64,000 nt of DNA, taken from a bacterium. Lineage in GTDB: Bacteria > Cyanobacteriota > Vampirovibrionia > Obscuribacterales > Obscuribacteraceae. The translations under genes and the position numbers were made by a program. The stretch lies in the NCBI GenBank assembly GCA_018062085.1, contig JAGOSY010000007.1, positions 124,001 through 188,000 on the forward strand, in the 5' to 3' direction. The notes below the pieces were generated by a model that ran no database searches, had not been told where the DNA came from, and saw only the letters and a list, made by a program, of their open reading frames with translations. Shown here one piece after another: positions 33,849-49,887 of the stretch (position 1 is the first letter of the stretch; the number at the start of each line of letters is the position of its first letter).

Positions 33849-36800
33849 CTAGTCAAGAATTAGGAGCCAGCCCATTTTCTTGACTTTATTAAGTGGGATT
33901 GATTGTGTGGCGCGTCCGTTTGAGCCAAATTCGATGACTCCGGCAAATTTGTTACCAGCTAAGTCTCTGGCATAGTAAGGTTCGTTCATCATGTTGTATA
34001 CCGCGCGCAGTTGACCTGAATTGGCATAGGCTGGCAACCCAAGCGTGCCTCGCATTTGAGTGCCATTTTCGTTGTTGGTTCCTCCTTCCCTGTAACCGAG
34101 GCTTCCATGCTGTTCAGCCAAGACTACTTTGTCTGCCATTACTGTTAATATTGGTTTTTCGCTACGCAGGCCAATTAGTGCTTCTTCTGCTGACTTCACA
34201 TCTGTAATTTCGCCAAGGTCAATTCTTTTTCGAATCGCTTCTACTTTCTCTCCACCGCCGGAACCGAGTGCTAGAATTTCAGGTGAACTAGCGAGGGTGA
34301 GAGTTGTGCCGTCAATTTTGGTGTTGGCGAGAAGTTCTGGAAGGTGGTGTGCAAAATACTCTAGCTGAGTGCCAGTTGCTTCGGTGCAATTTTGGGCAAT
34401 TTTACCAATATGATCTTGATTGAGCTGGTGCTTTTGTGTGAATATAAAATCTTCAAGATGCCTCAGGCTGGCAAGCCGTTGATGAATTGTCGCTGCCTTT
34501 TCTCTCTGATTGAACAGGTGTTCACTTATTGCTTGTTGATCTGATGGATCTAGTCTTGCGATCAGTGAATTGATCTTCTTAAGCTCTATTGGTTTTGCAT
34601 TTGCTGCTTCAGCAAGTTCAAATATTCGCTCGTTCTTTAGGGCGGGCATAGTCGAATCGAATAACTCTGCGGCTACTTTTTTGCCATTTATATTCAGCTT
34701 TGTGAACCTAGTAACATCAGTCGGACTCAACTGTTGGGTCTGCAGTTTAGACGTCAGCAAGTTCATCTCATTACTATTGAGTTCGACGTTCTTGATAGCC
34801 TTTAGTGTTTCGAGGCGTTCTAAGGTAGTGGGGCTTTTCGCTAGCACAGACGATGACTTTTGCATAATTGCATCTATTAGTTTCGCTTGCCCAGCTGAGC
34901 TTTCTCTGTATGCACTGATTTCAGACAATAGCGTTTTATTGGCGTCGGTATTGGCCGCAATGTCCAGAATGTGTTTTAAAGTCTGAGGCGAATGGTCTGA
35001 AAAGATAGTGCCTGCAATTTCACTGTAGCGATCTTTATTTTGTGCCAATCGAGTTAGGTTCATAGCAGATAGTTCTGACGAGCGAGAATCGAGCAGCTTG
35101 ACTGAATCAATGAACTTTTCAATATGTTTTGACTGTACGACTGCGTTACCGAAAGTTTCTGCTATGTGCATAGCTGTATTGGGTTCTACTGTTAGTAGCG
35201 AACGCACAATGTCAGGGCTTCTGTTTGTATTGTGGGTTTGTTGCAGACTCTCTGCTAACATTATCGCTTCGAAAGTCTTCGTGCCTTTGCCGGGTTGCGA
35301 AAGCAGTTGAGTAACTTCTTCATGGCTAATTATCTTGCTTAGCCTTGAGTCAAGTGTTTTGCCGTTTATCAGTTCGACTGCCGAGCTTAGCGACTTATCA
35401 GAGATCTGTTTGTTCTTATACAATCCGCCAAGGGCCTTAATTTGATCGACTTGAAGGGAGGCTAGCTCGTCTATGAGTGCCGCTGGGCGATGGCCTTTTG
35501 CTGCGCTGACTACTTCAGATACAGCGGTAACATTGGGTGCCAATGCCGCAAAATATTCTGCGGCATTAGGTATTCCTTTTGCTAGAGCAACACCGTCAAC
35601 CATTTTATATTTCAGCGCATTAATTAGTGTATGGAGGTGCTCTTTAGTTAGTCCGGGTAAATCCCCTGGAGGAAGTTGGGAGAGTGATTTGACTGCCTCT
35701 GGAGTTACTGTGATATTTTCTCGAGCCATGATCATCATTGCATCAGCAATGTCCATGGCTGTGTCTGGATGTACTTTCGAGCTAAGTAGTAATTCTCCTA
35801 GTGTCTTCGATGCCAGTGCTGCCGTTTCCTGCGCTTCTGGAGCCGTTAGCAAGCCTTTCGTTCGGTTCTGCCGCGAAGTGATATGGTTACAGGCCGCTAC
35901 GATTTCGGCGGTAGGATGCACGGCCGGCAGCGCTTGTTGATTTTCAAGCCACTTAAAGAGCGGCTCGCGCACATCGGCATGCTGATTACCGAAGTGGTGG
36001 CGCAGGTTCTTTGCGTTCCAGCGCTGCGGGTCGCTATCGTGCAGGGCAAGTATTGCCTCTTGTTCCATTGTCGCGGCTGAGCGTCCACCGCTTTCGCTGT
36101 GGGCGTTGTCGTACTTGCCTCTCAGTGCATTGAGCTGGTCTGGGCTCGGGTTGGGGCTGTCGGCTATGAATTTGACGTATGAAGGAGATACTACCTTGCC
36201 GTCCATTTCTAGTTGCCGCAAGTGAATGCGCTCTTCCATTGAGTTGATTGCCATTTCTTGCAAAATTCTTTGACCACTATCGCTGGCCTTGAAGTCTGCA
36301 AGTTTTTTTTGCTGCTCGGCACTCAGCGCCTTGCCGTCAATTGTTTTTGCCGAACTATCGAAGAGGTCAACTTTGACATTCGTTTCAATTTCAAGAATTG
36401 GTTGGGGTAGTTCTGCCAGAAGTTTTCCTTCGCGACGGCTGGCTTTGCTAACGTCGCCCATATCTTTAAGGGCATTTACCAAGTTTTTGTCGGCATTGCT
36501 TGGGTTGCTCAAGGCTTCTAGTGATATTTCAACTGGGTGTTTCTTGATTTCATAGTTAGCTGGGCCGCTAGATTTGTCTGTAGCTATTGCTAGTGCTTTT
36601 TGGAAATCGCCTTTCATAAAAGCCTCAGAATAGTGCTCGAGCTCTCCTATCATTTTTTGACCGGCCTCTGTTTGCCGCCATTTTTCGCCATGGGCTTCTA
36701 CTTCTATTGGTAGCTCTAGTTTCTTCGCTCCTTCTAGTTTGGCAACGGTCTTGGCGCCGCCGGGGAAAAGGTCTTTCTCGGGTAGGCCGGTTCCGCGTTC

Positions 36801-39800
36801 AAGTACAAAGGGCGACTGCCCAGGTAATTGATTGAATGAGCGTACTTCCCAGCGTGCCGCTTTGCTTTCACCAGGAGCTAGAATTGGTTTTACATCAAAG
36901 CCTTCTTTGCGATAGAACTCAATAAAGGCTTTTTCTCCTTCTGGTGATTTTGCCTCGAAATTGATTTTGCCACCTCTGCCGTGGCGCAGTGATGCCAGTA
37001 GGCCCTGGCCAATTGCTAGACTTGTGGAAATGCCGAAGGAGACACCGGTGTTGCCTTCATGCAACATGCTTTTCAATTGCTCTGGCGTCACTGCTTCAAT
37101 GCCTTTTTCAAGCGACATTTGAGCGGCAGTAAAGCCGGAGTTTATTAGGACCTCTTTTCCGAGGTTTTTCATGTAGTCACGCATGAAGTGCGCGGCGGTG
37201 CTATCGCCTTGTGCCATCAAGGCGGCGCGCTCCGATTGGGCGGCCAGCTGAGCCATCGATTTGCCTTCTCCGACTATTAGCTGTTTCATAGACTCAGTCG
37301 AAAGTGTTTTTGTGGAGAAACCAGAAAGTGCATATTTAGCTAGACCCATGGTGCCCAGTGCCAAGGCTGTATCAAACACTACTTGTCCGGCATAAGGTCC
37401 AGCTACTTCGGTGGCGAGTGTTTTGACGTTTTCCCAACTATCTCGCTCGCCAATTTTTGCAGACCAAGCCCCTGCTTTGGAGCGCTCGCCATAAACTCCA
37501 AAGCCGCTGTAGCCTAGGTTTGAGTTGACTTGATAGAGACCTTCTTTGGTCAGTTCAGAAGCGGCTAAGCCGGCAACTGAAGCCCATGCTGCCACTGCTA
37601 GTGGTGAGCTGACACCAAAAGTGGCACAGGCCGCGACAGTGGCAGCTACTGCAACTACTGTGGCGGCGATTACTGGTCCGTTAGTTTTGGCCCAGTTGGC
37701 AAAGGTGTCAGGTTTAAAGTTTGGATCTGTGACTTTATCAATTAGGGTTTTGAGTTGGCTATTGACATTTTTATCAGGGTTGAAGTTGACCGAGGGCTCG
37801 GGGTTGAGCATGTCGTGCATTTGTTTGTAGGTGGCAATTCTAGCGTTTAGTCCTGCGAGTGCCTCAGGGTTAGAATCTGCCTTGTTAGCCTTCATTCGGT
37901 CGGCAACTTCTTGCATACTGGTGATGCGTTCGCGTACATCAGCCAATTCTTCTTTTGTGACGCTATTCATAGCATTCTTAAGCATTGCTGCTTTGTCTTG
38001 GGCCGAGGCAACGAAGGTATCGAATTTAGTGCCCTTCTGTGCAGCATCAACCATCGCTGATAATTCTGGCAGAGCCTGGTTGAAGGTTTTACTAACCTTG
38101 TCTAGCCCGCGGAAGGCGTCATCATCGCTTAGTCTGTGCAGGGCATGGGCGCGCATAGCAGCGGTGTCGGCAAACTCTGCTGTATAGGTAAATCCTTCTG
38201 GTGCCCTTACCTGTTTGTATTTGATATCTTCGAGGGTTTTTAGCGCTTCTTTGAAGCCCTTTGAGCCACTATCATAATTTGGTACTGTGTCAAATTGGCC
38301 CATCGAAGCGTCTTTTAGTCTTCCTAAGGCGCTGCGACCAACCTGCTGACCGTCTGATGCCACTAAATCGCGCCAAACTGTTGGTGCCAGCTTTTGTAGC
38401 ATGGCACCATGCTCTTGCCACATACTTAAGGCTAGTTGGTCTGCCTCTTTTTGTCGACCTTTGTTTTCTAAATCAGTGTGATTGCCGATTTGCATTGCTA
38501 GATCTAGAACGTGTTTCTTTTGCCCGACTTCTGACAATTCTTGTGCTTTAAGTTCGGATTTTATATTTAATACAGGCAGCTGTTTGACAAGACTAACTTG
38601 CTTCTCTTCAAACTTGTCGATGGTATCATCGCCAAAAACTGAAGTTATGCGGCGTCCGAACGATACTCCCTCTTTTGTATGGTCTGAAAGTAAAGCCAAA
38701 TTGTGCGACTGCTCACGGCGCAATGTGGTGTGCTCTTTTGTTAAGTCGGCGACTTCTTTGCTGGCGACAAGACTTAGGCTGGCCAGCTGTTTTGGCAGAT
38801 CTTCAAGTAGTGCTTTGTTGCGCGATTCTGCCAAAGTGGCGTTGAGCATTTGACCGGCCACTTGAGCTTTGTCTACTGGCTCTTGGTTGCCTGTGACTTT
38901 TAGACGCAAGTCTGGAGGTAGTGAGTTAACTAGATCTATATTGCTAGCTACTCGTTTCAATACCTCTTCACCGCTGCTCTCTTTACTGGTGTAATTGCTA
39001 ACGATGCGATCAGCCTTAACAAAAAGAGCATCAGGGTTTTCTGCGGGAACGCCCCAATCTTGCAGTATGCCAGCTGGGGGCCGCTTGAGGCCAGCGTCGT
39101 AGACAATGCGACTGATTTCTTTGCTCAGGCTAATGTCAAATGGTCGGCCTTCTGCATAGTTAAGTAAGGCTTCTCTGAGATCTCGTGGTTCTCTGGTTTT
39201 GCCACTGCTATCGATGATACTTTGCTGCTCGCCTTTTGCCTCGTCTAGGTTTGGCCAAGCGTTGTCTTTAAAGGCTTTGTAAGCTATTTCTCTAGGACCT
39301 TCCCTGCCAGGTCTAGCATTGTCTGCCATTGATACAACGCGCAGCAGCGCTTTGCCCGCCTGAGCCTGAAACTCTATGGCCGCTTCACCGTTGATACCTA
39401 GCTTAGAAAGGCTTTCTTGACCACTTTTGCCGCCAAATAAGGCGATTGCTTTGACTTGCGCGCTATCAAGACTCTGGCCCAAAGAACCCATTGCCTTGAG
39501 GGCGCTAAGCCGTTCGCTATTCGCTTTTGCATCAGTTTCTTTGCTAGTGAGCTTTGCTTCTAGTGCAGTTGCTAGCTCACGGCGCTGCTCCTGAGGTACA
39601 TCTGGGGCGCTCTTGCGCAAGCCACTGATCATAGTTGGGGTCAAATGGTCTTGGACAAGCTTAATATCCGATTGATTCCAGTGCTTTGCCATCGACATCA
39701 GGCCAGCCACAGCACTCGTGTGAGACTTGTTGGCACTAGGGTCTGTTTCTTTCGAATCACGTAAATTTTCTATGCCTTTGTGGAGAACGCTGCGCACTTT

Positions 39801-42800
39801 CTCTATTGGTGCATTTTCAACTTTTGCGGCTATGGCACCAAGAGTTGACAATAGTTGATTTTTGTCACCGGTCTTGTCGTATACAGCGATTAGCGAGTCG
39901 ATAACTTTTTCTTGTTTGTCCGCTTGTTCACTTATTGCCGTAAGTATGTTTTTGGCTTTGTCTGCAATTGGATCTTTAGCTCTGTATATTGGTTTTTCGT
40001 CTTGACCTTGACCTACATAAGAAAGTGGATTGGCGATGCTGTTATCATCTGCTGCACCACTGGTGATTCCGGCTAAAATTGAGAGACTTGCATCGTCGCC
40101 AAGACGTGCCCACTGCGCTAGTGAGTCGAAATGCTTTGCTAAGATAGGATCACTAGCGCTTCCTTCTATATAAAGAGAACTTAGGTGATTTGCCCCGGGC
40201 AGTTCATGGCGGATTGTACTAAAAATACTTTCCATGACATTGCTGCGCGATGGTCCATCAATGGCCTTTGTCAGTGCCGACTCGATAGCAGCGGCGACTT
40301 TGCTTGATGCCATTGGCTTATCGGCACTGTTATTTTTATCATTGTTATTGGCACTGCTGCTCGTTTCTCTTTCTGCTCTTGCCTGCACAAGAGCGACCGC
40401 GAGTGTGCCAGCTTCTTCGACTGAGAGTTTCTTGCCTTTTTCTTCACTGCCCTGAGGCAGTGCTTGTTCAAGCCCCTCAATTGCTTTCAGCATTAGCTGT
40501 TCGGCTTCTGCTGCAGGCAGACCCTTTAAATTGGCAATGTATGTGGGTTTGTCAGCGGTTTTGCCAAACCCAGCGGTCTCGAAGACGGCCTTGCCTTGCG
40601 TATCGCTTCGGCCAAGCAATGTTGCAGCCAGGCTGGCGCGGGCAAAGCCATCGCCATTGTTGGCCGCCATATTCAATTCGGCAATTGCTTTTTCAGCTTT
40701 AGGTAGATCTTTGTTTGAAGCTGCTAGGGAAAGCTGGCTGACGTTTTGAGCCGAAGATGTCCATTTTAGCCATTCTTGTGCGTTTAGATTGTTCTTGTCT
40801 TGTTTGATCTCTTCTTCAAGTTGTTGACGCGCTGCTGTGAGCGCCTCGAGTGACGAATCGGGCCCCAAATTGCGAACTATGCGATTGGCACGGTAGTCGT
40901 TTAGTTCGCGCTCACCAGTTGGTAGGTGCGTTGTTATGTCTGAAAGTACCTGGCTATCTCCGCTTTCTAAACGCTTGGTCAGGTCTTCTAGGTTGAACTG
41001 ATTATTGTCGCCGCGCAAATTATTGAGATATCGATGGGCCAGATTGTGGTTGCCGTCATAGGCCATTTTCTGCAAGTCTTTGAGAGCTGTCGCTACTTGA
41101 AGATGGCCGTCTTTTGCGTCAGTTTGCGCAGCCTTATTGATGGCCTCATGCACTTTCTTGACAGCATCAATTGACTCTAGGTTGAGGCGCACGCTTTCGA
41201 AGGCGTAGTCGTTAAAATGTTTTAGACGTTTGTCACTGGTTTCGAGTAAATTATTTAGAGCCTCTTGTCGCTGCTCGCTCGATTGATTGCGTTTACTAAA
41301 ATTGGCTAGAGCTTGGTCGGCGCTATCAAAGTTGGCCTTGGAGAACTTTCGAGCTTCCTCACGCGCTGTCTCTAAGGCTACTGGATCGGCAAAGGCTTTT
41401 AGCAGGTCTTCAGCTTTGACTATTTTTAGTTCTTGGGACAGCTTTAGTGAGGGCTCTAAGGCCCGGTGTATAGCCTCTACTACCTCTGGCTTTTGTAAGT
41501 TTTCTTTGAAAGTTTTTTCGTTGCCCTTTTTTAGCGCTTGCAACATCTCTTGGCCTGCCTGGTCGCCGTTGAGTGAGCGCATAATACCATCGGCAGTGCT
41601 GTTGCCCTGGCGAGCTAGTCTATCTATTTTTCGCAAGGCCGCTGCTGCTCTTTCGGGATTATCTAGCGCCTCCGCTAGCTCTTTGGCGTCTCTAGTGCCA
41701 TGGGCGAACTCAACTACACGGCGATTTTCTTGGCCGCTGCCGGATAGATATTTGCTCACCATTTTTGCCGTTGAATCTGGCTCACTATCTACTTGCTCTA
41801 GTTGTGATAGAGCATCTCGATTGGTATTATTATTGTTCCTGCTATTATTGCTTGCCTCACCAGTGGCGGTGCCTCGGACCGCTTGGTCTAGAACTTTTGT
41901 AGCTAATTCTGTTTGAGCTTTTTCTTCAGATGCTGCCTCTCTGCGAGCTTGGTCGATTTCTGCTTTGCTGACACCCATTGCCGGGGCGTGATCTAGCAGA
42001 TCTGAGATTCCGCTTTGGCGCTTCTTGTCTCCTAACTCCATAATTGCTAGGTCGTTTAGCGCCTGCTGTTGATCTTCGATGGCTTTTTGCTGCGCCACTG
42101 GGTCTTGCGCCTGGTTAATTCTGCGATTGGCGTCGGCCAATTTAAGCGAGCCATCAAATAAAGACAGCTCTGTCAATCTTTGCATGGCACTGAGGTTGCC
42201 TTGCTGTACCTCTCTTCTCAATCCATCGAGGGCTGCTTGTCGAGCGTTTTGGTCTCCGCTCAGATAATGGCGGGTGAGAATATCGTTGCGGGTATGAACA
42301 TCGTCTTTGTGCACATGGGAGAGGTCTCGCAAGTCTGCGCTGCCTGGTGGTACGCGAAGGATGGCCGGGGAATCTATTTTTTCTTTGACATTGTCTGGAA
42401 TATTGGGATTTTTGAAGAAATCTTGGTAAATTTTTTCGGTAGATGCCGTTGGTGTTGTGTCCCTTGGAGCTGTCGAGTAACCCTGACTACTTTGCCAGTC
42501 TCTCAAATTGGATTGTAGGTCGGTCAATGCCCGTCCGCCTGGCTGAGATAGCTGTTGCACTAAATTGTGGGCATCAGCTTTGGAGTGGACACCGATGGCG
42601 TTGAGCATTGCGGCAGCTGGTTGGTTACCGCTTTGTTCTAGCTTTAAGGCCATGTTAAGGCTTTTTTCTAGTCGATTGGGATGGCCGGCATTTTGGATGG
42701 TTTCATCAATTGCTGAAGCTGTGTCAAGGGCTTGGGCCAGATGCATCAACGGTGCCTGCTCTCTTCGTGCCTCTGGGCTGAGAGTGTAGTTGGCAATTGT

Positions 42801-43529
42801 TAGATCAATTAACGCTTTAGTTTTCGCTTCTGCACCGGCAGGGTTTAAAACTTGGGTAAATGATTTCTCGGCCGCGGCCGATACAGCGTCGTCGCCGCCT
42901 TGGGCTGCGGTACGTGCCCATTTAACTTGGGCGTCCCTAAGTGGATTATGGCCATCTTTGCCGTTGGCATAGTTATCGAGAATGAACTCTGCAGTGTTTC
43001 CGGGTTTCGCCAATTTTGCCAGTTCAGTCAGCCCCCGTTGACTGAGGGGGATATCGTCGGCACTGGCGCCTTTCTGCAATTTTGACATTGCTTCTACTAG
43101 CTGCAGCGCTGCTAGAGCCGATTTGGCTTCATTGCTTTTACTTCCGATTGCTTCGTGTCCAAGTTGTAAAAGCGCTCTCTCAGCGGCTTTCTGGTCGCCG
43201 GCTTCTTGCCGTTCAAAGTACTGCTGTACAAGTGGGTTCTTGCTCTGCGGCTTACCGCTGGCGCTATCGATTTGCAGTATGTTTTCTAGGTCTTTGCCTA
43301 AGAGTTTTTTTGCCAGACCAAGATGCTCACTTGTGGCTGACTCTTGAGGGGTATTATTCGTCTCATTTCTCGATATGAGAAAACCAAGATCTAGACCGCG
43401 GTTGGCTTCAGTCAGAAGACGCTGTGAAGCCTTATCATTGTTCTGCTCTGAGTCATCGTCAGCTCTAGGAGAGAAATTTTCTTGTCGCGATGAAGGCGAC
43501 TCGCCCGATTCTCTTCCTACTCTGGACAC
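33849..43529 (-). CDS. Giant (3226-residue) helical protein of unknown function
   Basis: The longest gene here. There is no signal peptide; the N-terminus is polar. Residues about 50-1900 are almost all helical, with recurring degenerate units of the form ALxxLxxxAxxGNxxAxxxL (for example LDGLRREVQQGNLSAMQRL, KIDRLARQGNSTADGIM, IAELNMAANNGDGFARASL), resembling a HEAT- or Sel1-like solenoid. A hydrophobic Ala/Val-rich block lies at about 1945-1990, with more near 2055 and 2160. The second half is again helical; the last 80 residues are Gly-rich with strands. No catalytic motif was seen. GTG start with GAGG about 9 nt upstream. A scaffold or secreted effector are equally possible. Confidence 0.85.
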   Translation of the reverse strand: MSRVGRESGESPSSRQENFSPRADDDSEQNNDKASQRLLTEANRGLDLGFLISRNETNNTPQESATSEHLGLAKKLLGKDLENILQIDSASGKPQSKNPLVQQYFERQEAGDQKAAERALLQLGHEAIGSKSNEAKSALAALQLVEAMSKLQKGASADDIPLSQRGLTELAKLAKPGNTAEFILDNYANGKDGHNPLRDAQVKWARTAAQGGDDAVSAAAEKSFTQVLNPAGAEAKTKALIDLTIANYTLSPEARREQAPLMHLAQALDTASAIDETIQNAGHPNRLEKSLNMALKLEQSGNQPAAAMLNAIGVHSKADAHNLVQQLSQPGGRALTDLQSNLRDWQSSQGYSTAPRDTTPTASTEKIYQDFFKNPNIPDNVKEKIDSPAILRVPPGSADLRDLSHVHKDDVHTRNDILTRHYLSGDQNARQAALDGLRREVQQGNLSAMQRLTELSLFDGSLKLADANRRINQAQDPVAQQKAIEDQQQALNDLAIMELGDKKRQSGISDLLDHAPAMGVSKAEIDQARREAASEEKAQTELATKVLDQAVRGTATGEASNNSRNNNNTNRDALSQLEQVDSEPDSTAKMVSKYLSGSGQENRRVVEFAHGTRDAKELAEALDNPERAAAALRKIDRLARQGNSTADGIMRSLNGDQAGQEMLQALKKGNEKTFKENLQKPEVVEAIHRALEPSLKLSQELKIVKAEDLLKAFADPVALETAREEARKFSKANFDSADQALANFSKRNQSSEQRQEALNNLLETSDKRLKHFNDYAFESVRLNLESIDAVKKVHEAINKAAQTDAKDGHLQVATALKDLQKMAYDGNHNLAHRYLNNLRGDNNQFNLEDLTKRLESGDSQVLSDITTHLPTGERELNDYRANRIVRNLGPDSSLEALTAARQQLEEEIKQDKNNLNAQEWLKWTSSAQNVSQLSLAASNKDLPKAEKAIAELNMAANNGDGFARASLAATLLGRSDTQGKAVFETAGFGKTADKPTYIANLKGLPAAEAEQLMLKAIEGLEQALPQGSEEKGKKLSVEEAGTLAVALVQARAERETSSSANNNDKNNSADKPMASSKVAAAIESALTKAIDGPSRSNVMESIFSTIRHELPGANHLSSLYIEGSASDPILAKHFDSLAQWARLGDDASLSILAGITSGAADDNSIANPLSYVGQGQDEKPIYRAKDPIADKAKNILTAISEQADKQEKVIDSLIAVYDKTGDKNQLLSTLGAIAAKVENAPIEKVRSVLHKGIENLRDSKETDPSANKSHTSAVAGLMSMAKHWNQSDIKLVQDHLTPTMISGLRKSAPDVPQEQRRELATALEAKLTSKETDAKANSERLSALKAMGSLGQSLDSAQVKAIALFGGKSGQESLSKLGINGEAAIEFQAQAGKALLRVVSMADNARPGREGPREIAYKAFKDNAWPNLDEAKGEQQSIIDSSGKTREPRDLREALLNYAEGRPFDISLSKEISRIVYDAGLKRPPAGILQDWGVPAENPDALFVKADRIVSNYTSKESSGEEVLKRVASNIDLVNSLPPDLRLKVTGNQEPVDKAQVAGQMLNATLAESRNKALLEDLPKQLASLSLVASKEVADLTKEHTTLRREQSHNLALLSDHTKEGVSFGRRITSVFGDDTIDKFEEKQVSLVKQLPVLNIKSELKAQELSEVGQKKHVLDLAMQIGNHTDLENKGRQKEADQLALSMWQEHGAMLQKLAPTVWRDLVASDGQQVGRSALGRLKDASMGQFDTVPNYDSGSKGFKEALKTLEDIKYKQVRAPEGFTYTAEFADTAAMRAHALHRLSDDDAFRGLDKVSKTFNQALPELSAMVDAAQKGTKFDTFVASAQDKAAMLKNAMNSVTKEELADVRERITSMQEVADRMKANKADSNPEALAGLNARIATYKQMHDMLNPEPSVNFNPDKNVNSQLKTLIDKVTDPNFKPDTFANWAKTNGPVIAATVVAVAATVAACATFGVSSPLAVAAWASVAGLAASELTKEGLYQVNSNLGYSGFGVYGERSKAGAWSAKIGERDSWENVKTLATEVAGPYAGQVVFDTALALGTMGLAKYALSGFSTKTLSTESMKQLIVGEGKSMAQLAAQSERAALMAQGDSTAAHFMRDYMKNLGKEVLINSGFTAAQMSLEKGIEAVTPEQLKSMLHEGNTGVSFGISTSLAIGQGLLASLRHGRGGKINFEAKSPEGEKAFIEFYRKEGFDVKPILAPGESKAARWEVRSFNQLPGQSPFVLERGTGLPEKDLFPGGAKTVAKLEGAKKLELPIEVEAHGEKWRQTEAGQKMIGELEHYSEAFMKGDFQKALAIATDKSSGPANYEIKKHPVEISLEALSNPSNADKNLVNALKDMGDVSKASRREGKLLAELPQPILEIETNVKVDLFDSSAKTIDGKALSAEQQKKLADFKASDSGQRILQEMAINSMEERIHLRQLEMDGKVVSPSYVKFIADSPNPSPDQLNALRGKYDNAHSESGGRSAATMEQEAILALHDSDPQRWNAKNLRHHFGNQHADVREPLFKWLENQQALPAVHPTAEIVAACNHITSRQNRTKGLLTAPEAQETAALASKTLGELLLSSKVHPDTAMDIADAMMIMARENITVTPEAVKSLSQLPPGDLPGLTKEHLHTLINALKYKMVDGVALAKGIPNAAEYFAALAPNVTAVSEVVSAAKGHRPAALIDELASLQVDQIKALGGLYKNKQISDKSLSSAVELINGKTLDSRLSKIISHEEVTQLLSQPGKGTKTFEAIMLAESLQQTHNTNRSPDIVRSLLTVEPNTAMHIAETFGNAVVQSKHIEKFIDSVKLLDSRSSELSAMNLTRLAQNKDRYSEIAGTIFSDHSPQTLKHILDIAANTDANKTLLSEISAYRESSAGQAKLIDAIMQKSSSVLAKSPTTLERLETLKAIKNVELNSNEMNLLTSKLQTQQLSPTDVTRFTKLNINGKKVAAELFDSTMPALKNERIFELAEAANAKPIELKKINSLIARLDPSDQQAISEHLFNQREKAATIHQRLASLRHLEDFIFTQKHQLNQDHIGKIAQNCTEATGTQLEYFAHHLPELLANTKIDGTTLTLASSPEILALGSGGGEKVEAIRKRIDLGEITDVKSAEEALIGLRSEKPILTVMADKVVLAEQHGSLGYREGGTNNENGTQMRGTLGLPAYANSGQLRAVYNMMNEPYYARDLAGNKFAGVIEFGSNGRATQSIPLNKVKKMGWLLILD

Positions 43530-45389: not shown

Positions 45390-46616
45390 TTAGTCAGCGG
45401 CTGGTGGTTCAACTATGGCACCAACAAAAAGAATAGCATCTGTTTTTTCGTCGCGAATGGCCACTACGAATGGGCGATCGCAAACCATTTCAAATGGCGG
45501 TTTCGGATTCATTGGCGCGCTGGTGACGCTCATTTCAATGGCGGTGGCAGCTGCTGCCTCCGTGCCTTTCTCGTTGACCTCTAAATAGGTCTTGTGCAGC
45601 ACTCGAGAGATCATGGCATTTTGCTCGATCATCTTTTTGAAGTCAGCACAGTTGTCTTCAAATGCGCATGGCATACCTGCGGCCTTTAGTACTTCACTTA
45701 ACTCGGTTTTGTATTCAACTTTGAAACGCGGTAAGCCTAAGTGACCTTCTTCTTTTCTGAAGCTATTGTTCCATTCCTTCCAGTTTTCACTAGTGAGATT
45801 GTTGATGAAGGCTGTGATGTTTGATTTTTTATCGGGGAGGAAGATGCACATCTGCAGCCGTTTATCTTTGTAAGGAAGCATGACTGCCTGGAAATTATTG
45901 CCAGCGAAGTAAGACATTTTTGCCGAGCGATTCATCATCTCAACAGTTTTTTCTTTACCGTTTCCGACCTTGAACTCGGTTGCTTGAGTCTCGTCTTTCT
46001 TGAATTCATCCAACCAAACACCTTTAAAATAGACGGCGTTGACTAAATATAGAATGGCATCTGGTGCTGCTTTGTCGAGTATGCTTGGGATTTTTGTTTT
46101 AGTATTGTCTTTGACCCAATTATTGATTTTACTTACTGTAGTGAGGTCGGCAAAATCTAGTGTTTCGAGTTTGGCACCATAATACTTTTGATTGTTGTCC
46201 ATGAAAGATTTGTTGAAAACAAAGTTTCTGTTGGCAAACATGGCGTTGGCAACTGTCAATTCGCTTATTGGATTGACGTGCATCAGGCTCTTGTAAAGAC
46301 TTGAATTTTGCTGGTTGACAGCTTCATCGCGGAGACCGCTATAGTCTAAAACGCTTTGCATTTCGCTCTTGGTCTTACCACCAGCGCCGTTGTAGGCCAT
46401 CGACAGAGCTGTGCTCACGCTGTATGGTGAAATCACAATGTTGCTGTCTGGCTTCTTGGCTGCCAGCTTGAAAAATGTAGTGGCAAATTTTTCTGACACT
46501 TTGATATTCACCGCTTCTTCTTTACTTTCTGATTGATCAGTTGAAGCGCAAGCGACAACAAACATAGACATTAAAGAAAGTGCCGCAGCTGTGCTGCCAT
46601 ACAAGATAGAGCGCAA
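45390..46616 (-). CDS. Serpin-family protease inhibitor, probable lipoprotein (copy 1)
   Basis: Serpins trap serine or cysteine proteases by cleavage of an exposed loop. The 408 residues carry the family motifs NIVISPYSVSTALSMAYNGA, FKGVWLDEF, HKTYLEVNEKGTEAAAATA (hinge) and DRPFVVAIRD. A short-side-chain hinge predicts an inhibitory serpin. Counting from P15 Gly, P1 is Thr (SVT|SAP), but the loop is long. The N-terminus ends in MFVVAC, a lipobox, so it is probably membrane-anchored. TTG start, GAGG about 8 nt upstream, and the extended -10 TGCTATGCT. Paralogue at 48655-49887. Confidence 0.94.
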   Translation of the reverse strand: MRSILYGSTAAALSLMSMFVVACASTDQSESKEEAVNIKVSEKFATTFFKLAAKKPDSNIVISPYSVSTALSMAYNGAGGKTKSEMQSVLDYSGLRDEAVNQQNSSLYKSLMHVNPISELTVANAMFANRNFVFNKSFMDNNQKYYGAKLETLDFADLTTVSKINNWVKDNTKTKIPSILDKAAPDAILYLVNAVYFKGVWLDEFKKDETQATEFKVGNGKEKTVEMMNRSAKMSYFAGNNFQAVMLPYKDKRLQMCIFLPDKKSNITAFINNLTSENWKEWNNSFRKEEGHLGLPRFKVEYKTELSEVLKAAGMPCAFEDNCADFKKMIEQNAMISRVLHKTYLEVNEKGTEAAAATAIEMSVTSAPMNPKPPFEMVCDRPFVVAIRDEKTDAILFVGAIVEPPAAD

Positions 46617-46710: not shown

Positions 46711-48642
46711 ATGGATACCCTGTTTATTTATGTGGATGCCTTTGGACACCTTATGAAATTTGCAACAAAGAGTGGGTTCTGTGTGAGTGCAGCGTTATCA
46801 ATTGCAGCGGCTTTAGTTGCTGTCGTTGTAAATCCCAGTAAAGTTGATGCTGAGGGTCGGGTGGCCTCGAACTGTGCAGACTTGGTTGAGTTTAAAGATC
46901 CTGAGAATTTGCTTGGATTACAATTTAAGTATCCGCGCTCCTGGAAAGCCCAGAGGCGCCCTGACAAGGACAGTCTGGTTAAGATCAGCGGTAAGACCGC
47001 TAGCGGTACTGAGGCTGAGATTGTTGTTTCTGCTGTCGATGCACCCAAAGGTCTAAGTGCTCAGCAATTTTCTAAGATTTTGGACGAGGCCTTTTACTCT
47101 AAGTTGACTGGAGTCAAGAAGACTGTTTTTGGTGACGTCTTGGTTGGGAAGAGTGCTCGATTAAAGGGCTACTCGCAGACTATCACTTTCGCCGCTAATG
47201 GCTATATCTCTGGTCAGGAATATTTGATTATTCCGGGTAAGGGCAAGATCATTTCTTTTGTGCTTGGTGCACAGCCTTGGGAGCTTGAGCCAGCTCAAGC
47301 GGTCTGGAAGAATTGTCTCGCTACAATTGATGGGCCAAGTACACTGTTTGAGCCGGTTTCAGAGCGAGAGGCCATAGCTCTGCAACCACGCGCTGCAGAG
47401 TTTTTGCGCTCTTCTGGTTTAGTATCTTGCCCTCTACCTGTAGTGCGGAAGCCAGCCCCTAAAACTTCTTTGGATGAAAAAATTAAAGCAGTCTTGCCTC
47501 GCAAAGAAGAAGAGCGATTTCTGGAGATTCCTTGGCAATCAGATCTGCTAGCTGCTCGCGCTAGAGCTCAAGAGTTAGGCAAACCGCTATTCATCTGGAT
47601 AATGGATGGTAATGTGCTTGGCGCTACCTGAGGGAACGGTCACTTGAGCCGTGTGCTCTTGAATCACCAGGAAGTAGTTGACTTCATCAAAAAAAACTTT
47701 GTGGCTGTTAGTGCTTCTGTTGAGGAGTTGCAGCCAGGCCGCTACGGAGGCGCAATTTCGGCCCAGTCTAAATGGTTTGAGCCGATAGGGCAACGGGCCA
47801 TGAGTCAGTTTGCTCCTCCTGGTTTTTGGAAGGAGTTCAAAACCTATCAAGGCATGTATGTGGTTGGAGCAGATGGTGTTGTCTACGACTACAAAGTCGG
47901 TTTGCCTTATGATCCCAAATATTTTCTTGACTCTTTAGCTAAAGGACTCTCTGAATCTAATAAAGCATCGATCGCTAAGAGTGCTCGACTCAATAGTCGC
48001 TTGGCCAACGACAAAAGCTCTTTATCGGTTGCTCCATCGACATCTGTGGTGCGTGTTTACAGTCGCATTCTTCCTTTGCCGGCAAACTCCACCATATCTG
48101 AGCGCAGTGTTGGTCGTGATCATATGTGGATTATGCGCAGAGAAGTCGAGGAAATTCTTGCACAAAGTGGAGGTTTAGATGGGTTCGAATTGCCTCGATC
48201 ATTGGTCGCTAGAATGGTGCGGTTTCATTTGCTAAATAATGTGGGGAATATAATGCCTGCATTTTCCGAAAAGCAAGTGCGACGAGCTATCTTTAAGGCA
48301 AAGAAGAAGTCGGTGCAAGGTGACATTTTGACTTATTCGTTTACTGGCGATTACTCTAGCTACGCTGCTCCTCGATCTGATGATGCCGGAGAGGGTTCGA
48401 TGGAAGGCACACTTGCTGGTGAGTTTGATCTAGATAAGAAGTCTAAGATGATCGTGCGGTTCCGTGCTTATGGTGAAGCGCTCTCGCTTGGTCGTAACGA
48501 TTCAATGATCAAAACTCGGAAGTATCCAGTTTCAATTGCCATGGTTGAAGCGAATGATCCAATCGGTCGGTCAGTGATACCGTTTTGGGCAAATATTCCG
48601 ATGTTTGCTCCGACATACACTAATCCTCAAATAGTCCATTGA
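46711..48642 (+). CDS. Candidate selenoprotein: exported thioredoxin-like protein with in-frame TGA
   Basis: Two ORFs (46711-47631 and 47644-48642) are in one frame, separated only by TGA (47629-47631) and four codons. Read through, they give 643 residues with U307. Residues about 15-45 form a signal peptide. A PsbP-like alpha/beta domain follows (about 60-210). A thioredoxin-like domain (about 270-400) has WQSDLLAARARAQELGKP, the strand LFIWIMD, then GNVLGATUGNG, where U occupies the redox position, and VVDFIKKNFVAV. The C-terminal 230 residues are unassigned. A hairpin fitting the bacterial SECIS follows the TGA. Alternatives are a nonsense mutation or sequencing error. It lies between two serpins. 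ATG 46753 is an alternative start. Confidence 0.72.
47632..47668 (+). promoter_or_regulatory. Candidate bacterial SECIS element
   Basis: Counting U of the UGA as 1, bases 18-21 (GAGC) pair with 27-30 (GCUC) around the loop CGUGU. U17 is unpaired just below this helix, and the loop has G23 and U24. These are the positions recognised by SelB in E. coli fdhF. Lower pairing is partial (C15-G33, A14-U36, GGU 10-12 with ACC 38-40). The match comes from inspection only, not folding software. Confidence 0.6.
47644..48642 (+). CDS. Downstream half of the split thioredoxin-like gene if TGA is read as stop
   Basis: If the TGA at 47629 terminates translation, this 332-residue ORF would need the TTG at 47644, with only a weak GGGAACGG upstream and no signal peptide. 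It then begins in the middle of the thioredoxin-like fold, lacking the first strand and the redox position, which argues against an independent gene. Its first part finishes that fold (VVDFIKKNFVAV to GADGVVYDYKVG). The remaining 230 residues contain a helical region and a beta-rich end (MIVRFRAYGEALSLG) that I cannot assign. I regard it as part of 46711-48642. Confidence 0.5.
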   Translation: MSRVLLNHQEVVDFIKKNFVAVSASVEELQPGRYGGAISAQSKWFEPIGQRAMSQFAPPGFWKEFKTYQGMYVVGADGVVYDYKVGLPYDPKYFLDSLAKGLSESNKASIAKSARLNSRLANDKSSLSVAPSTSVVRVYSRILPLPANSTISERSVGRDHMWIMRREVEEILAQSGGLDGFELPRSLVARMVRFHLLNNVGNIMPAFSEKQVRRAIFKAKKKSVQGDILTYSFTGDYSSYAAPRSDDAGEGSMEGTLAGEFDLDKKSKMIVRFRAYGEALSLGRNDSMIKTRKYPVSIAMVEANDPIGRSVIPFWANIPMFAPTYTNPQIVH

Positions 48643-48654
48643 CAGTATTGAATT

Positions 48655-49887
48655 TTAATTGGCAGCCGCTGGATCAACAATGGCTCCCATAAACAGTATG
48701 GCACCGGTTTGCTGGTCGCGAATGGCAATCACAAACGGCCGATCGCAAATCATATTAAATGGTGGCGTTGGGTTGACGAAGGCGCCGCGAGGCATCATTT
48801 CAACTGCTGTTGCCGCTGCTGCCTCAGTGCCTTTTTCGTTGACTTCCAGATAGGTTTTATGAAGCACCCTTGAAATAAATACATCTTGATCGATCATTTT
48901 TTTGAAGTCGGCACAATCTTCATCAAAGGCGCAGGGCATACCGGCCTCTTTTAGTACTTTGCTCAGTTCGGTTTTATACTCAACTTTGAAGCGCGGTAAG
49001 GCTAGATGGCCTTGCTTATTACTAAATTTACTGATCCATTGTTGCCAGTTCTGTTCGTTAAATCGGGCAATCAGAGCGGCAATATTTGAATTTTGAGAGG
49101 GAAGAAAGATGCACATTTGTAGACGATTGTCTTTGTAAGGCAGCATCACTGCTTGGAAATTGTCGCCTTGCAAGTGCAACATTTTGGCAGAGCGATTCAT
49201 CATTTGTATCGATTTTTTCGTGCCGTTGGCGAGTTTAAAATCAGCAGGCTGCGTCTCACTCTCCTTGAATTCATGGAGCCAAGTACCTTTGAAATAAATG
49301 GCATTGACTAAGTATAAAATGACATCTTTCGGTACTTTGTCTAGAATCGTCGGTATCTTGCCTTTTGTATTTTCTTTGACCCAGTCATTTATTTTGTTAA
49401 GAGCAGAACTATTGGCAGTGGCAAAATTTAGACCTTCTAGTTTAGCGCCGTAATGTGTTCTGTTGGTATTGATAAAGTTCTGATTGAAGACAGCGTCTTG
49501 TTTAGCAAACAGGGCATTGGCAATTGCTAATTCGCTAAGCGGATTGACTTGCATCAGGCTATTAGAGAGGTTGGCATTTTGCTTGTTGACACTATCGTCG
49601 CTCAGGCCTTCGAATCCAAGTACCTTCTGCATCTCATTTTTAGTTTTACCAACAGCACCGTTATATGTCATCGCAAGGGCTGTGTTGACGCTGTATGGTG
49701 ATATGACAACGTTGCTATCGGTTGTTTTTGCTGCCAATTTGAAGAAGTTAGTAGCGAACTTTGCAGAAATTTTTTCAGTTACTGGGTCAATTTTACTACC
49801 TGATTGAGCATTGGCAGCAGATGAAACCACGAATGCAGACAGTAAAGACAGTGCTGCAGCTGTGCTGCCATACAAAATAGAGCGCAA
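48655..49887 (-). CDS. Serpin-family protease inhibitor, secreted (copy 2)
   Basis: A close paralogue of 45390-46616 along its 410 residues, with NVVISPYSVNTALAMTYNGA, FKGTWLHEF, the hinge NEKGTEAAAATA and DRPFVIAIRD. Two differences stand out. The signal peptide ends in AANAQ with no lipobox Cys, so this copy is probably released into the periplasm or medium. The reactive loop reads VEMMPRGAF, placing Arg at P1 by count from the hinge, which predicts trypsin-like targets. It has a TTG start and 48 bp of upstream DNA nearly identical to copy 1. It is convergent with the selenoprotein candidate (12-bp gap). Confidence 0.94.
   Translation of the reverse strand: MRSILYGSTAAALSLLSAFVVSSAANAQSGSKIDPVTEKISAKFATNFFKLAAKTTDSNVVISPYSVNTALAMTYNGAVGKTKNEMQKVLGFEGLSDDSVNKQNANLSNSLMQVNPLSELAIANALFAKQDAVFNQNFINTNRTHYGAKLEGLNFATANSSALNKINDWVKENTKGKIPTILDKVPKDVILYLVNAIYFKGTWLHEFKESETQPADFKLANGTKKSIQMMNRSAKMLHLQGDNFQAVMLPYKDNRLQMCIFLPSQNSNIAALIARFNEQNWQQWISKFSNKQGHLALPRFKVEYKTELSKVLKEAGMPCAFDEDCADFKKMIDQDVFISRVLHKTYLEVNEKGTEAAAATAVEMMPRGAFVNPTPPFNMICDRPFVIAIRDQQTGAILFMGAIVDPAAAN

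Follow-up and report, generated by a model that had tools for sequence, protein, structure and literature searches.

In the SECIS element of E. coli fdhF, counted with the U of UGA as 1, U17 is followed by a four-pair helix from nucleotide 18, and G23 and U24 lie in a loop of 4 nt. A more general model of the bacterial SECIS, as set out in the legend to Fig. 2 of a 2026 review (PMC13188914), has an apical loop of 3-9 nt on a stem of 4-16 bp, a G in the first two loop positions that is mostly followed by G or U, a distance of 16-37 nt between UGA and loop, and a minimum free energy of -7.5 kcal/mol or lower. Table 1 of the same review lists 119 prokaryotic selenoprotein families or subfamilies, among them a Trx7/PDZ selenoprotein (NF041199, CxxU) and other thioredoxin-like selenoproteins, which have Sec in a thioredoxin-like fold, as predicted for the gene described here. 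In selenoprotein N (SELENON) the active site reads SCUG, and Arg466 stands four residues after Sec462 (PMC8967691).

The locus lies in a stretch of 64,000 nucleotides (hereafter the window) from a bacterium that probably belongs to the Obscuribacterales, an order related to the cyanobacteria; the assembly, 5.83 Mb in 80 contigs, is 88.17% complete. An earlier note had seen here two same-frame open reading frames, each incomplete, split by one TGA, and this is indeed the layout: an ORF at 46711-47631 (306 aa) is followed by an open frame at 47632-48642, with the TGA at 47629-47631 as the sole one between them. The sequence and its relatives indicate that this conserved in-frame TGA very probably encodes Sec, which would make the product a predicted exported redox protein with a thioredoxin fold. 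The features are as follows, family A being the window gene with its relatives L002, L003, L004, L005 and L027, all read as DNA.

46711..48642, + strand: whole candidate selenoprotein gene, 643 codons including the internal TGA, final stop TGA at 48640-48642
46753..46851, + strand: possible true start (second ATG, codon 15) and signal-peptide-like stretch MKFATKSGFC...VDA, recognised by eye
46876..47343, + strand: N-terminal PsbP/Mog1-like domain, residues ~56-211
47428..47430, + strand: Cys240, invariant in 6/6 proteins of alignment A1, proposed as resolving Cys
47500..47982, + strand: thioredoxin-fold domain, residues ~264-424
47629..47631, + strand: candidate Sec codon 307, an in-frame TGA read from the sequence and kept in relatives
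47645, + strand: U17, unpaired base beneath the helix, read from the sequence (T17 invariant in the six family-A genes)
47646..47658, + strand: SECIS-like hairpin GAGC-CGUGU-GCUC, helix nt 18-21/27-30, loop 22-26

In alignment A1 the relatives L002-L004 lack about 14 residues at the N-terminus, which bears on the choice of the second ATG. The gene is flanked by two serpin genes, at 45390-46616 (-) and 48655-49887 (-) (PF00079, 383.6 and 380.3 bits), which have very similar N-termini and are likely tandem paralogues; the window also holds a single ORF of 3226 aa at 33849-43529 (-). TGA terminates nine of the 38 long ORFs listed in the window and is therefore a normal stop in general, so that the earlier note was right in seeing no global recoding.

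The window protein is predicted to be exported. It would consist of a PsbP-like domain, followed by a thioredoxin fold in which the Sec is placed and by a C-terminal domain for which domain and fold searches gave no clear match; the structure model is of modest confidence (mean pLDDT 62, pTM 0.32). No Pfam or NCBIfam model scores above its cut-off on this protein; the NCBIfam scan yields no family at E up to 1, and Thioredoxin_7 (PF13899) stays below its cut-off with 18.6 bits against 27. The earlier placement of the TGA after the first strand of a thioredoxin-like fold, in a redox position, is upheld in so far as GAT-U-GNG falls after a strand (293-298) and ahead of a helix (310-317) in the predicted structure, although confidence in the model is low at 300-311. 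Thioredoxin_7 and Thioredox_DsbH/DUF255 (PF03190), which are exported thioredoxin folds like the C-terminal part of DsbD, share the predicted fold and likewise have their active-site residue just past the first strand of the alpha/beta core. Unlike these, the window protein has a lone U, with no CxxC, CxxU or UxxC partner in its active site, and the PsbP-like and C-terminal domains in addition. The PsbP-like domain is also found in other proteins of the order, without the TGA domain and sometimes twice per frame (e.g. G000:C36:37218-37640). The kind of gene, a bacterial selenoprotein with a SECIS, is known; the family appears to be new, set apart by family-model scans and by printed motifs, as TUGNG and the sister motifs TUSAG and FCUT are absent from those printed in Table 1 of PMC13188914, where entries with a short motif or none (CU, GUxG, '-') are not separable by motif.

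In all six family-A genes the TGA stands at the same codon. The named relatives come from Candidatus Obscuribacterales, Obscuribacter or Melainabacteria assemblies, and the five genes share 55 (L002), 48 (L003), 47 (L004), 48 (L005) and 37% (L027) identity with the window protein over the matched part, which begins only at residue 161 for L005 and at residue 252 for L027. L023-L026 are the same proteins as L002-L005, and a family-A-like fragment in another genome (G017) stops short of spanning the TGA site. For the three pairs among L003, L004 and L005, dN/dS is 0.169, 0.110 and 0.103 before the TGA and 0.141, 0.203 and 0.149 after it; no ratio is claimed for the window gene, since seven of its eight comparisons gave a saturated, unusable dS. 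In these relatives, purifying selection downstream of the TGA is similar to that upstream, and the in-frame UGA has selected coding sequence on both sides, as is the criterion for a selenoprotein. A Cys form of family A was not found among the homologues searched, and P0001, a family-A member read as protein only, carries Leu in place of Sec, which is evidence that Sec can be lost in this family. The alignment of homologues at position 307, which the earlier note had proposed as a check for Cys or U, thus gives TGA in all of family A read as DNA and Cys in some members of its sister families, but no Cys within family A itself.

These sister families, B and C, came from a search of 53 genomes of the order with one shorter relative as query, which gave 112 matches in 41 genomes. 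One of these is the window gene and three cover the C-terminal part only; among the 108 others, all of which span the site, 106 have a TGA inside the match and the remaining two have Cys (L065, TGT) and Glu (L105). The exact place of the TGA was checked only in the extracted genes (family B, 34 TGA and one TGT; C, 15 TGA; A, five TGA; identical proteins merged), a set in which the rarity of other residues is not measurable because the genes were picked by motif. Family B has the motif GATUSAGNSLRAVSLS and family C FCUTNARLARTVLFS. Genomes of the order hold up to six B/C matches; in the source genome there are three family-B genes (L071, L097, L098), and no family-C gene was found. In a tree of 76 domains, which took eight of 12 loci from the wider phylum and left out L027 and L105, families A, B and C with the phylum homologues separate with supports of 0.994, 0.794 and 0.882. 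Comparison of profiles gives E-values of 1.8e-9 for A-B, 5.3e-9 for A-C and 3.9e-14 for B-C. The Sec columns coincide in A-B and A-C, whereas the B-C comparison and the joint alignment set the Sec of A and B against the Cys that precedes the Sec in C, and the register is therefore uncertain by one residue.

Cys at the Sec place is seen in one member of family B, the TGT gene L065. Among the 120 of 1269 matches listed, at least ten family-C proteins span the site, nine with Cys (P0002, P0005, P0006, P0007, P0011, P0013, P0014, P0015 and P0077) and one with Ser (P0004), and these Cys relatives run continuous through it. In a sample of 386 genomes of the phylum, 25 match, the source genome included; the other 24 have a family-C homologue, free of stops in 23 and with a TAA in one, and in all 12 loci fetched from those 24 genomes (L133-L144) S-C stands at the C-U place of family C. 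In L105:1273-2205 (+), a family-C gene of G015, the first Cys is kept and Glu replaces Sec, and G015 also has TGA forms. Some members, then, have neither Sec nor Cys, namely P0001 with Leu, L105 with Glu and P0004 with Ser.

Alternatively, the TGA could be a real stop, the second half being the remnant of a decayed gene or an independent ORF starting from the TTG at 47644. That start codon lies 12 bases past the TGA, and sister proteins stand in the databases as pieces that begin past it (P0008, P0020, P0112). However, neither decay nor two genes would lead one to expect the same TGA in six of six diverged genes, the similar dN/dS on either side, a single predicted thioredoxin fold that runs across the site, or the continuous Cys relatives of family C, and I consider this explanation very unlikely.

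Family C resembles selenoprotein N in its L-D-D/E-x-x-C-U. A presumed human SelN fragment matches the family-C profile with E 4.9e-5, above 999 of 999 shuffles and with the C-U pairs aligned; the same fragment gives 0.015 against family B and is not found by the profile of family A. On PF03190 a family-C member reaches only 15.4 bits against a cut-off of 27. The window protein reads A-T-U-G, without a preceding Cys, in place of SCUG, and family C mostly F-C-U-T. Selenoprotein N has an N-terminal EF-hand and a membrane anchor; Pfam and fold searches of the window protein found no EF-hand and a PsbP-like domain instead, and the window hairpin is of the bacterial SECIS kind. As the likeness is to family C and the family-A profile misses the fragment, I do not file the window protein as SelN.

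The genes for Sec insertion, for which the earlier note had proposed a search, are all present in the source genome: selA (429.4 bits in a profile search), selD (350.6 bits, adjoining a TusA/DsrE-like gene), a tRNA-Sec gene (69 bits, anticodon tca, UCA) and selB. The last is an ORF of 844 aa with SelB-wing_3 above cut-off, and its best single match of 194.2 bits exceeds the cut-off of 242.25 only when summed with same-frame neighbours (266.8). The tRNA-Sec gene occurs in 42 of the 53 genomes of the order and selA in 38. Of the 45 genomes that have tRNA-Sec or selA, 39 contain the B/C families, as do two of the eight that have neither (Fisher p 9e-4); for tRNA-Sec alone the counts are 38 of 42 with it and three of 11 without (p 7e-5). 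The genomes are related by descent and not independent. The two that have B/C and neither gene, G038 and G040, are 65 and 75% complete, and six genomes have the machinery without a B/C match. In the source genome a family-B gene (L114:17635-18594, +) lies about 14 kb from the tRNA-Sec gene (L114:3618-3713, -), with ORFs resembling rpoB/rpoC, named by eye, between them; a family-B match likewise stands on the tRNA-Sec contig, at a similar distance, in G008, G009, G032, G033, G034, G047 (24 kb) and G048.

The hairpin that the earlier note described after the TGA has the features claimed for it, with U17, GAGC at 18-21 pairing with GCUC at 27-30, and a loop of C22-G23-U24-G25-U26, but it is unconvincing by itself. 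It resembles the fdhF element in U17, in the four-pair helix from nucleotide 18 and in G23-U24 of the loop, and differs in its loop, 5 nt where fdhF has 4, and in that the predicted fold of 47 nt shows no stable lower stem. With a loop of 5 and a stem of 4 it agrees with the model in the Fig. 2 legend of PMC13188914; the loop CGUGU, like those of all six family-A genes, fits the rule for G, and the loop at nucleotide 22 is 18 nt from the UGA, inside the range given there. As to the -7.5 kcal/mol limit of that legend, the 47-nt region reaches -9.8 but in another fold, the hairpin alone has -3.0, and L027 has -10.1 in the expected place. For the 47 nt the minimum-energy structure is the other pairing (z +0.50), and 131 of 200 shuffles are at least as good. 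Under the loop, stem and spacing rules of the bacterial SECIS model, 123 of 1500 sampled window TGAs (~8%) do as well or better, although the exact form, a 5-nt loop from nucleotide 22 at -3.0 or better, is found at one of 2309 window TGAs, the candidate Sec TGA.

Comparison among relatives is more telling. A 5-nt loop starting at nucleotide 22 is possible in all six family-A genes. Over their five distinct sequences the helix 18-21/27-30 is paired in every one of 20 cells, L027 supplying one double change, and the competing fold in 84%; because 104 of 500 shuffles of these five sequences reach the same percentage, the pairing test in family A is not decisive alone. The stem of L027 is quite different, stronger and in the same place (40 nt, z -1.01; hairpin alone -9.5 kcal/mol, z -3.04), and a 3-nt loop at nucleotide 23 is there better still. 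In B and C together, 96.9% of the cells of the helix 21-26/33-38 are paired, a value that none of 500 shuffles reaches, and in 14 cells both partners have changed; all 43 distinct sequences have CGUG in the loop. In family C the helix has a mismatch in L106 and only four pairs in L102 and L113. Sliding the B+C helix by -2 gives about the same covariation score (0.249 vs 0.245) and only 65.5% of cells paired. The B+C hairpin matches that of family A with its loop 5 nt further on and in the other reading phase. A model built from B and C gives the window hairpin 7.9 bits (E 2.4), and seven other places in the window score higher.

Compared with residues just as conserved elsewhere in each gene, codons under the hairpin are nearly frozen (B, p 1.1e-6; C, p 3.4e-6; A, p 4.1e-4), though the p-values are only a guide because the sequences are related. 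Normalised codon entropy under the hairpin and elsewhere is 0.143 vs 0.637 in A (five genes), 0.327 vs 0.881 in B (34) and 0.294 vs 0.874 in C (15). The string GAGCCGUGU..GCUC is common to the window gene and family-B genes such as L097, but the codon phase differs: it encodes serine-arginine in A and alanine-valine in B, and protein conservation is therefore no explanation for it. The Cys gene L065 has other codons at this place (GCG GTC TCT CTT); as a 5-bp hairpin can still be drawn, it makes no case for loss of the hairpin with Sec. Weak as it is in a single sequence, the hairpin appears, by this comparative evidence, to be more than chance.

Readthrough of the UGA by a suppressor tRNA or by near-cognate Trp would give a full-length protein without selenium. 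Trp does stand at the Sec place in P0129 and P0235 of family B, but this may be TGA translated with code 4 by gene callers. The presence of tRNA-Sec and SelB, Cys as the usual replacement in the sister families, synonymous constraint on a hairpin whose loop and spacing agree with the SECIS rules, and TGA as an ordinary stop in the window all speak against such readthrough, which seems highly improbable. A sequencing or assembly error that put TGA in place of a sense codon is hardly conceivable, with the TGA at the same codon in four separate relative assemblies and in G037.

The reading of 46711-48642 as a candidate selenoprotein gene, first made in the earlier note, is thus supported by the TGA kept in all six family-A genes read as DNA, by the machinery and by the comparative evidence for the hairpin. 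In the mechanism I propose, SelB with Sec-tRNA-Sec would bind the small hairpin, its loop beginning 18 nt past the UGA, and translation would go on with Sec at residue 307 in place of a stop. After export, the PsbP-like N-terminal domain would be next to the thioredoxin-fold domain, which resembles the DsbD C-terminal-like, AGR or DsbH type and would have Sec at the start of its first active-site helix. There it could reduce a disulfide or peroxide and, as Sec would be a lone nucleophile (T-U-G-N-G, no CxxC), be resolved by the linker's invariant Cys240 or by the thiol of a partner; in L027, which is shorter and lacks the N-terminal domain, this role could fall to a Cys two residues ahead of Sec (C-T-U).

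It is possible, though I advance it only tentatively, that the Obscuribacterales have a lineage-wide superfamily (A, B and C) of exported thioredoxin-fold selenoproteins with one shared SECIS hairpin, that this is a main reason why the lineage keeps Sec, and that the catalytic domain of animal selenoprotein N has its bacterial counterpart in family C (LDDxxCU, with S-C elsewhere in the phylum). Automatic annotation splits such genes at the TGA, and the sister proteins are deposited as post-TGA pieces, some as 'hypothetical protein'; a selenoprotein group across this cyanobacterial side-branch therefore appears to have been overlooked. Because a like loop is used in more than one setting, with two distances to the UGA and two reading phases, the shared hairpin would offer a clean natural set for the study of SelB-RNA recognition. 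The Cys and Sec forms within one phylum, together with the likeness of family C to SelN, may offer a bacterial route to the function of a thioredoxin fold with a lone Sec.
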